A program made the translations under genes and the position numbers. From Hyphomicrobiales bacterium (GTDB lineage Bacteria > Pseudomonadota > Alphaproteobacteria > Rhizobiales > Aestuariivirgaceae), in NCBI GenBank assembly GCA_016792825.1, contig JAEUMI010000279.1, positions 1 through 34,378 of the forward strand: 34,378 bases of DNA, given 5' to 3'. Shown in pieces: positions 26,848 through 34,378 of the stretch (positions within the stretch are counted from its first letter, which is position 1; each line of letters opens with the position of its first letter). Under the pieces are notes generated by a model. That model saw only the letters and a program-made list of their open reading frames with translations, did no database searches and was not told the DNA's origin.

Positions 26848-28707
<1,860 letters not shown>

Positions 28708-28825: not shown

Positions 28826-30034
28826 TCAGTCGTTCGCCGTGACGGCAACCCCGAGCACATCTACTGCGGCGCCCGGATTGGCCGGATCAAGCGCCATGAC
28901 CTGCTCGACCTTCACCGGCGCCGCGGGCTTGAAGGACACGGTAAATGACTTGGGGTCCTTCAGGAAGGAGTTGACCGCCGCCACCACCTGGTCGGTAAAG
29001 GCCTGGTTCCTCAGTTGCATGAGGCTGAGCTGCATCATGGCCCCGGCATTGGCAACCATGGCCGCCTGATCCATGCCCTGCATCTGGGCGATGATCGGCA
29101 GTACTTTCTTGGTGATCGAGGCATCCTCGAAACGAACCGTGAAGCCGCTCAGCGACACATTCATCAGCTGTGGCATGAGCATGTTGAAGTCCGGCGGCCG
29201 TCCCGATTTCTGCGCCGCCTGCATTTCGGCCATCACCGCGATTGGAATGTCACTCGCTCCGTAGGAGAAGGTCAGGCCGGCCATGTCCTTGCTCGCGATG
29301 TTGATCGTGCCTGACATGCCGAAGCTCTCGCCGGTGACCGTGAATTCGCCTTCCCCGCCGGCATTCAAGGTGAGGCCGCTGTAGCCCAAGGCTTTCAGCT
29401 GGCCCGCCGGATCCAGCAATGCGATGGCGGATTCCGGGATGACCAGGTCATTGAAGCTCATGGTGGTCTTGCCGGCCCCCGTGACCGGATCACCGCTCCA
29501 CGCCGATTCAATTCCCTTTGCCGTGAAGGTCTGGCCCTCCGCCGTGATCTTGATTTCGCCCGAGGTCATTTTCTTGGCGATGCCCATGGAGCCGCGGAAG
29601 ACCTGCAGAGGCGTGGGGTTGGCGCCGAGGACCGCGACATACCAGTCTTCCGCCGAGGCTTTGGGGATATCAATGACAAAGCTCTTGTTTTGAGGCCCGG
29701 TGAATTCCAGCTTTGTGTCAGAGAAGGTTGCCGCCCCCACCGCGATGAGCCCCTCCGCTTCCGTGGCGACATTCTCCAGGGCAATGGAGCCGATGCTCAG
29801 CTTCATCGTCGTGCCGGGATCCTGGGCCGAGGCCGTGGCGGCCACGTTGCTGATGGTCACGTTGCCGGAACTGTCGGTTTCAATCTTGTCATAGGCGGGC
29901 GTGGCCTTGAGCTGGGTTTCCCAGCTTTTGAAAATGGCTGTGACGACCGGCGGCACATCCTGCGCCCGGGCCGGAACCGTCAGGGCCGTGGCGGCAAGCA
30001 GAAGGAATAGGGCGGCGCGGGGCGAATTTTTCAT
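28826..30034 (-). CDS. Secreted or periplasmic protein of unknown function
   Basis: I do not recognise this 402-residue protein. It has a clear signal peptide (MKNSPRAALFLLLAATALTV, cleavage after PARAQ near residue 25). The rest is rich in Ala, Gly, Ser and Thr with alternating hydrophobic residues, suggesting beta structure: repeated strand-like stretches such as NVTISNVAATAS, GEFTVTGESFGMSGTIN and VSLSGFTVRFED, then an Ala/Gln/Met-rich helix (about 315-350, MQGMDQAAMVANAGAMMQL). There are no cysteines in the mature part and no lipobox. The layout recalls DUF945-like periplasmic proteins, but I see no motif that proves it. It is divergent from the second L,D-transpeptidase gene and ends at a strong palindromic terminator. 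Confidence 0.8.
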   Translation of the reverse strand: MKNSPRAALFLLLAATALTVPARAQDVPPVVTAIFKSWETQLKATPAYDKIETDSSGNVTISNVAATASAQDPGTTMKLSIGSIALENVATEAEGLIAVGAATFSDTKLEFTGPQNKSFVIDIPKASAEDWYVAVLGANPTPLQVFRGSMGIAKKMTSGEIKITAEGQTFTAKGIESAWSGDPVTGAGKTTMSFNDLVIPESAIALLDPAGQLKALGYSGLTLNAGGEGEFTVTGESFGMSGTINIASKDMAGLTFSYGASDIPIAVMAEMQAAQKSGRPPDFNMLMPQLMNVSLSGFTVRFEDASITKKVLPIIAQMQGMDQAAMVANAGAMMQLSLMQLRNQAFTDQVVAAVNSFLKDPKSFTVSFKPAAPVKVEQVMALDPANPGAAVDVLGVAVTAND

Positions 30035-30170
30035 GGGTTTTGCCTTCTTAGGAGGTTGTCAACGGGAATGCTCTATGCCCGAGCATAAGTGAACCGCAGG
30101 TGAACTCAACCCACTTGCTGAATCACCCTTAAATGACTACTTTTCGCGCTCTTCTTCTTAGGGAAAAATC

Positions 30171-30947
30171 ATGATGCGCAAACTACTTACGGCGGTGTTA
30201 TTTGTTTTGCTGAGCCTGTCGGTCGCCCCGGCCCAGGCCAATGTCCCGGCCAATACCAGCCAGGATGAAGTACTTTTGATTCAAAAGAAGAAGAAACTGG
30301 CTGCCCTGAAGGCGGCCGAGGAAAAGAAGAAGGCGGCTCGCGCCGCCGAAAAAGCCAAGCTAAAGGCGGCCAGGCTCAAGGCCGACAAGCTGAAAAAGAC
30401 CCGGACCGCCGCGAGGCGCGATTGCGGTGGGTTTATGCAATGCCTGTTCGGCAAGCCCCGGCGCAGCGGCTCCAACGCCGGCATGAGCAACCGCTCCAAG
30501 CGCAAACAGGTAGCCTGGAACGAAACCAAATATGCCCCCGGCACCCTGATCGTGAAGACCCCGGAAAGGGCCCTTTACTATGTGATGGGTGATGGCGAGG
30601 CCATGCGCTATTCAATCGGCGTGGGCCGCGAAGGCTTCCAGTGGAGCGGCAATTCCAGGATCGTTGCCAAGGCCGAGTGGCCCTCATGGACGCCGCCGCA
30701 AACCATGATCAAGCGGGAAGCCGCAAAGGGCCACATCCTTCCGCCCTTCATGAAAGGCGGGCCAGGCAACCCCCTGGGCGCCCGCGCCATGTATATCGGC
30801 GGCACGATTTACCGCGTTCATGGCACCAATGCCGAATCCTCCATCGGCGGGGCAGTCTCTTCCGGCTGCATCCGCATGATGAACGCCGACGTGATTGACC
30901 TCTATGAACGTGTCAGCGTCGGCTCGCCCATCTACGTCTACCAGTAA
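30171..30947 (+). CDS. L,D-transpeptidase (YkuD domain) with Lys/Ala-rich N-terminal helix
   Basis: This is the second exported L,D-transpeptidase in the window, 258 residues and only distantly like the first. It has a signal peptide (residues 1-23, ending APAQA), then a long charged helix (about 36-83) built from Lys, Ala, Glu and Arg (QKKKKLAALKAAEEKKKAAR and onward), a Cys pair at 85 and 91, and a basic linker. The YkuD domain follows from about 124 (GTLIVKTPERALYYVM) with catalytic H217 in HGTN and S231-GCIR with nucleophile C233 and R235. The Lys/Ala-rich part may bind peptidoglycan or another anionic envelope polymer. An AGGGA site lies 6 bases from ATG 30171; ATG 30174 is an alternative. 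A strong terminator follows. Confidence 0.93.
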   Translation: MMRKLLTAVLFVLLSLSVAPAQANVPANTSQDEVLLIQKKKKLAALKAAEEKKKAARAAEKAKLKAARLKADKLKKTRTAARRDCGGFMQCLFGKPRRSGSNAGMSNRSKRKQVAWNETKYAPGTLIVKTPERALYYVMGDGEAMRYSIGVGREGFQWSGNSRIVAKAEWPSWTPPQTMIKREAAKGHILPPFMKGGPGNPLGARAMYIGGTIYRVHGTNAESSIGGAVSSGCIRMMNADVIDLYERVSVGSPIYVYQ

Positions 30948-30966
30948 GCCAGGCGTTGAAATGATT

Positions 30967-30996
30967 AAGGCCGCGGTTTTCGCGGCCTTTTTTATT
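30967..30996 (+). terminator. Rho-independent terminator after the second L,D-transpeptidase
   Basis: Nine-base perfect arms AAGGCCGCG (30967-30975) and CGCGGCCTT (30981-30989) enclose loop GTTTT and run into a T tract (30988-30996), 20 bp after the stop codon. Confidence 0.93.
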
Positions 30997-31025
30997 AGCA
31001 GGTGGGTGCTCCCCGCCAAAGAATT

Positions 31026-31053
31026 GACCCCGGAGGCATTGCCGTCCGGGGTC
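31026..31053 (-). terminator. Strong hairpin downstream of the histone-like gene
   Basis: Nine-base perfect arms GACCCCGGA (31026-31034) and TCCGGGGTC (31045-31053) hold an inner GGC/GCC stem. Leftward it follows the small gene's stop by about 30 bp. The T tract is short and interrupted, so it may be a weak terminator or an mRNA-stabilising hairpin. Confidence 0.5.
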
Positions 31054-31082
31054 CAATCCTAAAGTCTATGCTAGCAGAAGAA

Positions 31083-31154
31083 TTAGATCTTCTTCTTGGC
31101 TGACTTCTTCTTGGCAGCTTTCTTAGCAGGCTTCTTAGCAGCTTTCTTAGCCAT
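31083..31154 (-). CDS. Tiny Lys/Ala-rich histone H1-like protein (23 residues)
   Basis: Read leftward from the ATG at 31152-31154, 23 codons encode a peptide beginning MAKKAAKKPAKK and ending SAKKKI, made almost only of Lys and Ala with one Pro, one Ser and a final Ile. Such AKKPAKKA repeats match the C-terminal tails of histone H1 and of bacterial H1-like proteins (the HC1/AlgP type), which bind DNA or other polyanions. Support for a real gene: a strong Shine-Dalgarno (AGGAG, spacing 8), a clean TAA stop, a hairpin after the stop, mixed codon use for Lys and Ala (not a simple repeat), and its own intergenic space. It likely binds nucleic acid, or possibly polyphosphate. Without conservation or expression data the call stays tentative. 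Confidence 0.72.
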   Translation of the reverse strand: MAKKAAKKPAKKAAKKKSAKKKI

Positions 31155-31208
31155 AGTGTATTCTCCTAGGAGTTAGATGTTAGTGCCCCACAACGCAGGC
31201 AAGTCTTA

Positions 31209-31255
31209 CAACAACGATTGCGCATACCTGTCGTCCGTATTCGTAATCGTTGTTG
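31209..31255. repeat. 11-bp perfect inverted repeat
   Basis: Arms CAACAACGATT (31209-31219) and AATCGTTGTTG (31245-31255) are separated by 25 bp, 55-100 bp upstream of the histone-like gene. It could be a leader stem-loop or a bipartite binding site. Confidence 0.7.
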
Positions 31256-31363
31256 ACGTCCCTTTTGGACCCGATTGTGTGATTCGGCAATATGCCGTCA
31301 ACATCTGGTGTATCGCCCGCAAGTCCTTAAGGCCAGGTAAACGCGCGAGGCGCCGCCCTGACC

Positions 31364-31377
31364 GTCCGTATACGGAC
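31364..31377. repeat. 14-bp perfect palindrome
   Basis: GTCCGTATACGGAC is fully symmetric. A related half, GTCCGTATTCG, occurs near 31232. The pair suggests binding sites for a dimeric regulator in this gap. Confidence 0.6.
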
Positions 31378-31693
31378 AGATTATTTGATTCAGCGGAATT
31401 TTTCAGCAAATACGCTTGAATCGCAGCTGCTCCGTGGACGGACAGACAGGCAATTTTTTTGTGCTGCGCCGGAATTTTTCTCGGTTCGAGAGATTTTTTC
31501 AGTCCGGACGCCGAAAAAATAATTGTTAATAAAATGTCATCTGTTGCCGATTCAACACGGTGCGCGATGGAATTCGCGCCGATGAAAATCCGATTCCGTA
31601 TCACAATGAGACACCTTCGCAGAGATGGAGATCACAAAAATTGAACCCCGCATCGCCAAAAAAATCGGTGGCGACACTTCAAGACAACTGGAA

Positions 31694-31728
31694 AACAAAA
31701 AAATGGCCGGAGAAATCCTCCGGCCATT
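31694..31728 (-). terminator. Rho-independent terminator of nrdJ
   Basis: An 11-bp perfect stem (arms 31702-31712 and 31718-31728, loop of five) is followed leftward by a T tract (the A-rich run 31694-31703 on the + strand). It lies about 20 bp after the nrdJ stop codon. Confidence 0.93.
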
Positions 31729-31749
31729 CTCCATTTCATCGCATGCCGA

Positions 31750-34378
31750 TCACGAACAGCCGCTCGTGCCGCCGCAGGTGTTGCACTTCAGGCAGGTGCC
31801 GTTGCGCACCAGTGTGAAGTTTCCGCATTCACCGCAGCTGTCGCCCTCATATCCTTGCAGGCGTGCCTTGGCGCGCAGGTCGGCTTCCGGCAGCGGCTCT
31901 TCATAGGTGTAGGCGATTGTGGTCTCGGCCAGCGCAAGCGCCCCCATCGACACCGATTCCGCCGCGCGCATTTGCAGCGCATGGGCCGGCGATTGCGCCG
32001 AAGTGGCGGCACCCTGCGGCATCACCACGACGTTGGACAGGTTCTGATTGCGCACGAAGCCCGATGACAGGAACTTCTGCGCCGGAACCGAAGCGGGGGC
32101 CTTGGGTTCGGCGCTGCCCGTGCCCTTGCCCAGCGCATCAAAGCCCATTTCGGAGGCTTCCACATGGGCGAGATCATTGCGCCCGAGATAGGAGACGGCG
32201 AGTTCGCGGAACACATAGTCCAGGATGGACGTGGCGTTCTTGATCGACTCGTTGCCCTGCACCTGGCCCGCGGGCTCGAACTTGGTGAAGGTGAAGGCAT
32301 CGACATATTCCTCCAGCGGCACGCCATATTGCAGGCCCACCGACACGGAAATGGCGAAGTTGTTCATCATCGCACGGAGCGCTGCGCCCTCCTTGTGCAT
32401 GTCGATGAAGATCTCGCCCAGCTTGCCGTCATCATATTCGCCGGTGCGGAGATAGACCTTGTGGCCTCCAACAACCGCCTTCTGGGTATAACCCTTGCGC
32501 CGGCCCGGCAGCTTGTCGCGGCCGCGGGCAATCTCGACGATCTTCTCGACGATGGTCTCGACGCGCTGGATCATGGGCTTGGCCATCAGGCCTTCGACCA
32601 AGTCCTCAGCCTCGTCCTCGTCATCGGCGATGAGCTGGGTGGAGAGCGGCTGTGAAAGCTTCGAGCCGTCACGATACAGCGCATTGGCCTTCACGCCGAG
32701 CTTCCACGACAGCATGTAGGCCGCGTTGCATTCCTCAACCGTGGCCTCATTCGGCATGTTGATGGTCTTGGAAATCGCCCCTGAGATAAAGGGCTGGCTT
32801 GCCGCCATCATGCGGATGTGGCTTTCCACCGAAAGATAGCGCTTGCCCAGGCGGCCGCAGGCATTGGCGCAGTCGAACACCGGGAGATGCTCGTCCTTAA
32901 GACCCGGAGCGCCTTCCAGCGTCATGGCTCCGCAGACATGGATATTGGCCCTGTCGATATCGGCCTTTGAGAAGCCGATGAACGAGAGCAGGTCAAAGCC
33001 GTAGTCTGCGAGCTGATCGTCGCTGATTTTCAGCACCGACTTGCAGAACTCTTCGCCGAGCGTCCACTTGTTGAACACGAACTTGATGTCGAAGGCCGAT
33101 GCAAGGCCCGCTTCAATCGTCGCGATCTGCTCGTCGCCAAAGCCCTTGGCGCGAAGCTGGGCATGGTTGAGGGCAGGGGCATCCTGCAGGGTGCCGAGGC
33201 CAACCGCATAGTTGATGATCTTCTCGATCTGGGTGGCATCATAGCCCAGGGTGCGGAGCGCTTCCGGAACCGCCTGGTTGATGATCTTGAAGTAGCCGCC
33301 GCCGGCCAGCTTCTTGAACTTGACCAAAGCAAAGTCCGGCTCGATGCCCGTCGTATCGCAATCCATCACCAGGCCGATGGTGCCGGTGGGGGCAACAACC
33401 GTGGCCTGCGCATTGCGGTAGCCATGGGCCTCGCCCAGTTCAACCGCCAGATCCCAGGCCTTGCGGGCATGGAGAATGAGATCCCGGTCAGGGCAATCCG
33501 TTTCATCGAGCGGCACCGGCGCAATGTGCACCGCTTCGTAACCTACCGCCGCGCCATAAGCGGCCCGGCGATGGTTGCGCATCACCCGCAGCATGTGGTC
33601 CTTGTTCTTGCCATAGCCGGGGAAGGGGCCGAGCTCCTTTGCCATTTCAGCCGAGGTGGCATAGGAAACGCCCGTCATGATCGCCGAGAGCGCTCCGCAG
33701 ATGGCGCGGCCCTCGTGGCTGTCATAGGCAATGCCGTTGGTCATCAGCAGACCGCCGATATTGGCAAAGCCCAGGCCCAGTGTGCGGTACTCATAGGAGA
33801 GCTTGGCGATTTCCCTGGAGGGGAACTGCGCCATCAGCACGCTGATTTCCAGGACCATGGTCCACAGCCGCACCGCATGCTCGTAAGCCTCCACGTCAAA
33901 CTTCGCCGTTTCCGGATTGCGGAACTGCAGCAGGTTGAGCGAAGCGAGATTGCAGGCCGTGTCGTCGAGGAACATGTATTCCGAGCAGGGGTTGGAGGCG
34001 CGGATGTCGCCCGATGCCGGGCAGGTGTGCCAGTCATTGATCGTAGTGTGATACTGGATGCCGGGATCAGCCGAGGCCCAGGCCGCATGGCCGATCTTGT
34101 CCCAAAGGTCGCGGGCCTGCAGGGTCTTGGTCACCTTGTTCGACATGCGGGCATTGAGGTTCCAGGTGCCATTGGTTTCAACCGCGCGCAGGAACGCATC
34201 GGTGACGCGCACCGAGTTGTTGGAGTTCTGCCCCGATACGGTGCGGTAGGCCTCGCCATCCCAGTCCGTGTCATAGGCGTCGAATTCAAGTTCCGTGTAG
34301 CCCTGCTTGGCGAACTGGATCACCCGCTTGATGTAGTTGTCGGGCACCATGTTGCGCCGCGCCTCTTTCACGGCGCGC
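31750..34378 (-). CDS. nrdJ: Vitamin B12-dependent (class II) ribonucleotide reductase, C-terminal part
   Basis: This enzyme reduces ribonucleotides to deoxyribonucleotides using adenosylcobalamin, so it works with or without oxygen. About 875 residues are in the window; the family is usually near 1200, so the N-terminus (ATP-cone region and first active-site segment) is beyond base 34378 and the start cannot be given. Class II hallmarks: [23 protein letters not shown], with the radical-site region, the [22 protein letters not shown] barrel-loop segment, and [21 protein letters not shown] near the end. The C-terminus carries a zinc-type cysteine cluster ([18 protein letters not shown], ending SGCS) characteristic of NrdJ, thought to serve thiol relay. 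No cobalamin riboswitch is visible; any would be outside the window. A strong terminator follows. Confidence 0.96.

Follow-up and report, generated by a model that had tools for sequence, protein, structure and literature searches.

Introduction

AlgP of Pseudomonas aeruginosa binds DNA and is associated with polyphosphate granules, and Hc2 of Chlamydia binds both DNA and RNA and represses translation (PMC9239181; PMC2848022). The locus described here shares with AlgP the Lys/Ala/Pro repeats and the composition of a histone H1 tail, and with Hc2 and the BpH1 protein of Bordetella the Lys-rich Ala/Pro/Thr/Val repeats with evenly spread charge, as these are described in the cited accounts (PMC9239181; PMC2848022). 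It differs from AlgP in that the repeats of AlgP form a C-terminal domain of 154 amino acids on a longer protein, while the microprotein is the tail alone, 22–55 aa (PMC9239181), without the further domains of AlgP and Hc1; no AlgP-type domain was encountered ahead of the repeat tail when reading from the Shine-Dalgarno-served ATG in any of the 39 loci. We propose that the gene encodes a lineage-restricted, "tail-only" H1-like microprotein preceded by a new structured leader, its function being what we infer from sequence. The gene is short enough for routine annotation to miss, and the proposed leader RNA was found by following it.

A Lys/Ala microprotein gene and its surroundings

The window, that is, the whole stretch of 34,378 nucleotides analysed, carries the gene between nrdJ and a convergent L,D-transpeptidase gene (ldt), as detailed in Table 1. 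The sequence-only reading had described a small gene with a strong Shine-Dalgarno sequence, a TAA stop and a downstream hairpin, all of which were confirmed, the frame running from an ATG at 31154..31083 on the minus strand; the putative promoter box, the structured leader and the terminator hairpin are additions to that reading.

Table 1. Features of the microprotein locus, with positions numbered from the first letter of the window.
Feature	Position	Strand	Basis and remarks
L,D-transpeptidase (YkuD), convergent	30171..30947	+	PF03734, E 1.8e-18
Terminator-like hairpin of the microprotein transcript	31015..31061 (about)	-	Folding, conservation
Lys/Ala microprotein gene	31083..31154	-	23 codons and TAA; ATG start; product MAKKAAKKPAKKAAKKKSAKKKI; orthologues and codon-position counts
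Proposed structured 5' leader	31155..31297	-	P0, P1 and inner stem; covariance model match at these coordinates (training sequence)
Shine-Dalgarno region CTAGGAGA	31163..31170	-	GGAG ends 8 nt before the ATG
Box TTTACCTGGCCTTAA (TTTA-N7-TTAA; CtrA-like)	31327..31341	-	29 nt before the leader
Terminator-like hairpin following nrdJ, which sets the microprotein unit apart from it	31698..31732	-	Terminator scan
nrdJ, B12-dependent ribonucleotide reductase, cut by the window end	31750..34377	-	NF005736, E = 0, 1546.5 bits (whole-protein cut-off 1737)

The combined Lys and Ala share of the window peptide is 0.83, the sole value above 0.40 among the 181 ATG-initiated ORFs of 20–60 aa in the window, and the maximum across 200 mononucleotide shuffles of the window was 0.42. 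We judge the gene to be real from its sequence features, with the conservation of its orthologues as stronger evidence than these chance statistics. The histone H1-like character proposed by the sequence-only reading stood in part: the Lys/Ala composition is real and the repeat number varies as in Hc2, but profile searches with the window peptide and a 43-aa relative returned no Pfam family at E up to 10 and, in NCBIfam, only a hit of E 8.2 to a valine--tRNA ligase model, so that the match to a curated profile that Hc1/Hc2-type proteins would give was not found in either collection. A short, low-complexity Lys/Ala peptide could hardly score against curated profiles. Within the literature searches made, no description of this Lys/Ala peptide was found.

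The hairpin that follows the gene has a predicted energy of -28.0 kcal/mol (z -4.57, with 0 of 200 shuffles as good) and a weak U-run after it. It is conserved in relatives, and in some of the 37 loci aligned both sides of its stem change, from CCCC/GGGG to CTCC/GGAG. A simple terminator scan of the window missed this hairpin, probably on account of bulges in its stem. By its box, its leader and the hairpins at both ends, the microprotein gene is predicted to be a transcription unit of its own, apart from nrdJ.

Of the 39 orthologous loci, 34 have nrdJ upstream in the same orientation; of the five others, L005 and L006 have less than 1 kb of upstream sequence, and L008, L031 and L171 have about 1.5 kb in which nrdJ is absent. 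The convergent ldt gene lies downstream in 36 of 39. In G041 the unit stands without nrdJ and ldt in the available sequence, and a homologue of the ORF at window positions 26926-28707 is found there instead. Two further observations concern this neighbourhood: the L,D-transpeptidase carries a Lys/Ala/Glu-rich, weakly TolA-like stretch ahead of its YkuD domain, and a 402-aa ORF at 28826-30034 on the minus strand, for which neither Pfam nor NCBIfam gave a match at E up to 10, has relatives near ldt in several genus members.

Distribution and variation of the orthologues

A DNA search of 100 genomes (the window's own and 99 relatives) gave matches in 50, many of them merely Lys/Ala-coding stretches of other genes. 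The orthologous peptide was read at 39 loci in 39 genomes, which were chosen by a MAK/MAAK/MAAAK/MAVAK-type start and belong to four genera of one Hyphomicrobiales family (32 in genus g1, five in g7, and one each in g5 and g6). Read from the Shine-Dalgarno-served ATG, all 39 begin with MAK, MAAK, MAAAK or MAVAK, and GGAG lies 6–9 nt upstream of the ATG in each of the 38 loci measured. The gene thus passed the check under which a lack of conservation of frame, start and Shine-Dalgarno sequence in relatives would have spoken against it. The short frames that the sequence-only reading expected downstream of nrdJ in related genomes were present in relatives within the family, but were seen only in this Hyphomicrobiales family: among 80 nrdJ loci surveyed, one (L033, genus g7) has the peptide, and 13 have fewer than 700 bases after nrdJ and cannot tell.

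The 38 complete peptides have 19 different lengths, from 22 to 55 aa, with the frame intact in all, and are composed of eight residue types (K 617, A 481, P 62, M 38, V 19, T 17, I 5 and S 4), none of them acidic. In five loci (L017, L018, L019, L021 and L031) the open frame also extends back through the leader to an earlier ATG. Two copies are imperfect: in G033 the frame runs into undetermined bases, and in G008 (L214) the leader and start are kept, the Lys/Ala repeat is lost after about 15 codons and the 3' end is disrupted, by decay or by assembly error. With both included, 33 of the 37 g1 genomes have the leader, the four without it being incomplete MAGs (74, 79, 82 and 90% complete).

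The pattern ATGGCNNCNAARAARNCNNCNAARAAR, which is blind to MAKKAAKK starts, the window peptide's included, matched in 7 of 297 genomes of the order, all in the family, with one match for the reversed control. With one mismatch allowed, GGCATATTGCCGAATC adjoins the gene in 33 of 37 g1 genomes; a further one-mismatch match occurs away from the gene in G017 and in G028, and one of 24 other genomes of the order (G061) has such a match. With up to three mismatches, ACCTGCGTTGTGGGGCACTAAC was found in 14 of 397 genomes: ten of these are among the 13 genus members that the search covered, and the other four are scattered three-mismatch matches elsewhere (reversed control, 3). A 29-aa protein query against 51 genomes gave zero matches, which is uninformative, the set having contained no genome known to match fully. 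In addition, a free-standing 23-aa Lys/Ala ORF (MAKAAKKPAAKKAAKKPAAKKKK) was observed at 1557-1628 of L179 (G060), in another family of the order and in a different gene context; it may be an independent instance of such a microprotein.

Codon-level evidence

In 17 nearest-neighbour pairs of equal length, 62, 54 and 125 changes were counted at codon positions 1, 2 and 3; 62 codons differed synonymously and 71 non-synonymously. For all 52 same-length pairs, in which equal length is no guarantee of codon-by-codon homology within repeat arrays, the corresponding counts were 293, 313 and 469, and non-synonymous codons (359) exceeded synonymous ones (166). A filtered subset of 15 of the 52 pairs had looked mostly synonymous, whereas the unfiltered count does not. 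The third-position preference is present and not overwhelming, which makes the codon evidence moderate, and the pattern across these sequences is weaker than classic purifying selection. Because the unfiltered count is not mostly synonymous, we slightly lowered our confidence in the explanation preferred below and raised, by a similarly small step, the weight given to an RNA as the main product.

A proposed structured leader

The roughly 140 nt before the ATG consist of invariant blocks and a middle whose sequence varies while its pairing is kept. The proposed leader comprises a hairpin P0 (CGGCA-TAT-TGCCG), a closing helix P1 (CACAA..GGGT with GCCTGCGTTGTG) and an inner stem of variable sequence. 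Covariation was counted for 24 named pairs in 39 leaders, 37 of them distinct, that had been aligned by sequence; the inner stem had been added by hand after inspection of single folds and pair columns and was then counted, so the count was not blind. The named pairs form in 88.3% of cells, compared with 82.5% in shuffles; cells changed on both sides number 77, where shuffles average 32.3 (sd 6.3) and no slid version exceeds 29; and the covariation score is 0.260, compared with 0.158 for shuffles and at most 0.102 for slid versions. Two measures are weaker, namely the number of pairs showing double changes (8 compared with 6.0, with 35 of 500 shuffles as high and one slid version reaching 9) and the number of further pair types (31 compared with 29.8 expected in shuffles, 171 of 500 being as high). 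Of the eight pairs with double changes, seven belong to the inner stem and one to P1, with none in P0. Pair 25-124 fails in 11 of 37 sequences and pair 47-103 in 16 of 37, and RNAalifold applied to the sequence alignment gave only 13 pairs, one of them covarying. Covariation across these sequences supports the inner stem, while P0 and the outer part of P1, which hardly vary, could instead be promoter DNA.

Folding energy does not identify the strand of the leader: the mean z was -1.87 for the inner part, -1.85 for the longer part, -1.58 for the reverse complement of the inner part and -0.20 for upstream DNA (29 of 39 loci), in a set where L020 is represented by 26 nt only and the upstream control is missing for two loci.

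The leader covariance model gave one match each in 40 of 69 genomes of the family (33/37 in g1, 1/1 in g5, 1/1 in g6 and 5/5 in g7) and none in the 25 genomes of the family's six other genera; 39 of the 40 matches are training sequences, and G008 is the only new one. All 40 places (the 39 peptide loci and G008) precede the microprotein start codon. Among 249 genomes of the order, with strict filters that lose weak matches, the model matched in eight, all of the family. A search of Rfam over 29800-32400 found no family at gathering score and none overlapping the leader at E up to 1. The shape of 6S RNA is a closing helix, an open middle and an inner stem, all of which the leader shares, but unlike 6S RNA (RF00013) it precedes an ORF. 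An identity with 6S RNA was tested and found unlikely, as RF00013 had no match in 29800-32400 at E up to 1 and the 6S RNA of this genome lies elsewhere (G000:C323).

An upstream box and the question of CtrA

Every one of the 38 loci whose upstream DNA reaches far enough has a box 29-30 nt ahead of the proposed leader, as an exact TTTA-N7-TTAR in 33 and as near variants in five. GAATC is present in all 39 loci; the block that bears it also served as an anchor for cutting leaders, and no locus was dropped. GAATC is the form of site methylated by CcrM.

A promoter scan gave another candidate at 31301-31274, a sigma-70-like pair (TTGACG-16-CACAAT) that falls within the proposed leader. Should this pair be the promoter, the invariant block containing P0 and CACAA would be promoter DNA and the transcript would begin further down.

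The consensus of CtrA is TTAA-N7-TTAA, and one such site stands at -35 in most CtrA-induced promoters of Caulobacter, according to the cited account (PMC11264516). CtrA is encoded in the window's own genome (417.8 bits against a cut-off of 350). The same genome has a perfect TTAA-N7-TTAA site around position 1501 of L218 (G000:C317:3143-3158), between divergent hemE and maf-like genes, an arrangement reminiscent of the hemE promoter of Caulobacter, which CtrA binds (PMC11264516). A stricter pattern, TTWACC-N4-GTTARC, gave five sites in four genomes, compared with three for the reversed control. That CtrA controls the microprotein gene is a guess from the sequence of the box.

Discussion

The explanation we favour, though only somewhat, on the basis of sequence and analogy, is a free microprotein of the H1-tail type that binds polyanions, most likely DNA, and that is expressed from its own promoter with translation set by the leader. 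The product, 22–55 aa long, would be an unfolded, strongly basic, free-standing histone-H1-type tail, whose regularly spaced Lys pairs, with Ala/Pro between them, would bind polyanions without sequence specificity. DNA would be the likeliest target, with nucleoid compaction as the outcome, and RNA or polyphosphate would be possible ones; both nucleoid compaction and polyphosphate binding are plausible by composition and by the analogues AlgP and Hc2. Peptides of 22–25 aa may not be long enough to remain bound to DNA. The gene would be transcribed alone from its own promoter, perhaps timed to the cell cycle via CtrA, and the folded leader would set the amount of translation. The strong Shine-Dalgarno sequence, the dedicated control region and the structured leader suggest expression that is high and controlled, and translation, abundance, DNA binding, CtrA control and a regulatory role of the leader are what we infer for this gene.

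The most serious competitor is a dual-function sRNA, in which the main product would be the RNA itself, present in single copy and some 280 nt long, with a short ORF carried on it; we regard it as fairly unlikely. The invariant blocks, the covarying stem, the single leader copy per genome and a third-position excess of only about twofold in the ORF would suit it. The frame, the start, the Shine-Dalgarno spacing and the Lys/Ala composition, however, are kept while the inner stem changes its sequence, and every place found by the leader model stands before the start codon. It is unlikely, too, that the peptide acts on ribosomes or RNA, as an RNA chaperone or a ribosome-bound stress peptide, rather than on DNA; Hc2, which binds RNA and represses translation, offers a precedent (PMC2848022), but the sequence does not distinguish RNA from DNA as the target, and DNA is preferred here only by analogy.

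Two other readings were tested and found improbable to a far greater degree. A Lys-codon leader peptide of a transcription attenuator, with the 3' hairpin as the attenuator, would account for a Lys-rich peptide followed directly by a conserved hairpin, but gene order contradicts it: no same-strand gene was found after the terminator, and there is none to attenuate because in 36 of 39 loci the first gene recognised beyond it is ldt, which runs convergently, so we consider it very improbable. Scarcely credible is a real gene on the other strand, encoding a Phe/Leu/Ala-rich hydrophobic mini-protein. In each of the 38 loci its frame stays open across more than 90% of the gene, and, at least in the window, the sense third positions are third positions there as well; yet ATG is the first start in only four of 38, an SD-like motif precedes the start in one of 38, and the Shine-Dalgarno sequence, the leader and the hairpin suit the sense strand.

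Returning to the H1-tail microprotein, its confirmation would mean that an H1-like protein has been reduced to its tail, far shorter than the H1-like proteins compared. A bolder and rather unlikely extension is that the leader is a cis-regulatory RNA of a new class, which would sense either the peptide itself or some signal and meter the polycation through the cell cycle, with nucleoid compaction in this lineage of Hyphomicrobiales being tuned by a minimal, naked H1 tail under CtrA and RNA control. The 19 lengths under one conserved control region offer a natural test bed.

Compared with known systems, the putative promoter box of the microprotein resembles the CtrA-activated promoters of Caulobacter in having two TTAA-like halves 7 bp apart; in 32 of the 38 loci, each half is one base away from the CtrA consensus. 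The microprotein has a structured leader, whereas none is mentioned for Hc2 and BpH1 in the cited account, and these proteins are larger, at 165-237 aa for Hc2 and 182-206 aa for BpH1 (PMC2848022). A likeness lies in how size changes: Hc2 and BpH1 vary by the in-frame number of their repeats (PMC2848022), and the same in-frame variation of Lys/Ala/Pro repeat number was found among the complete microproteins.
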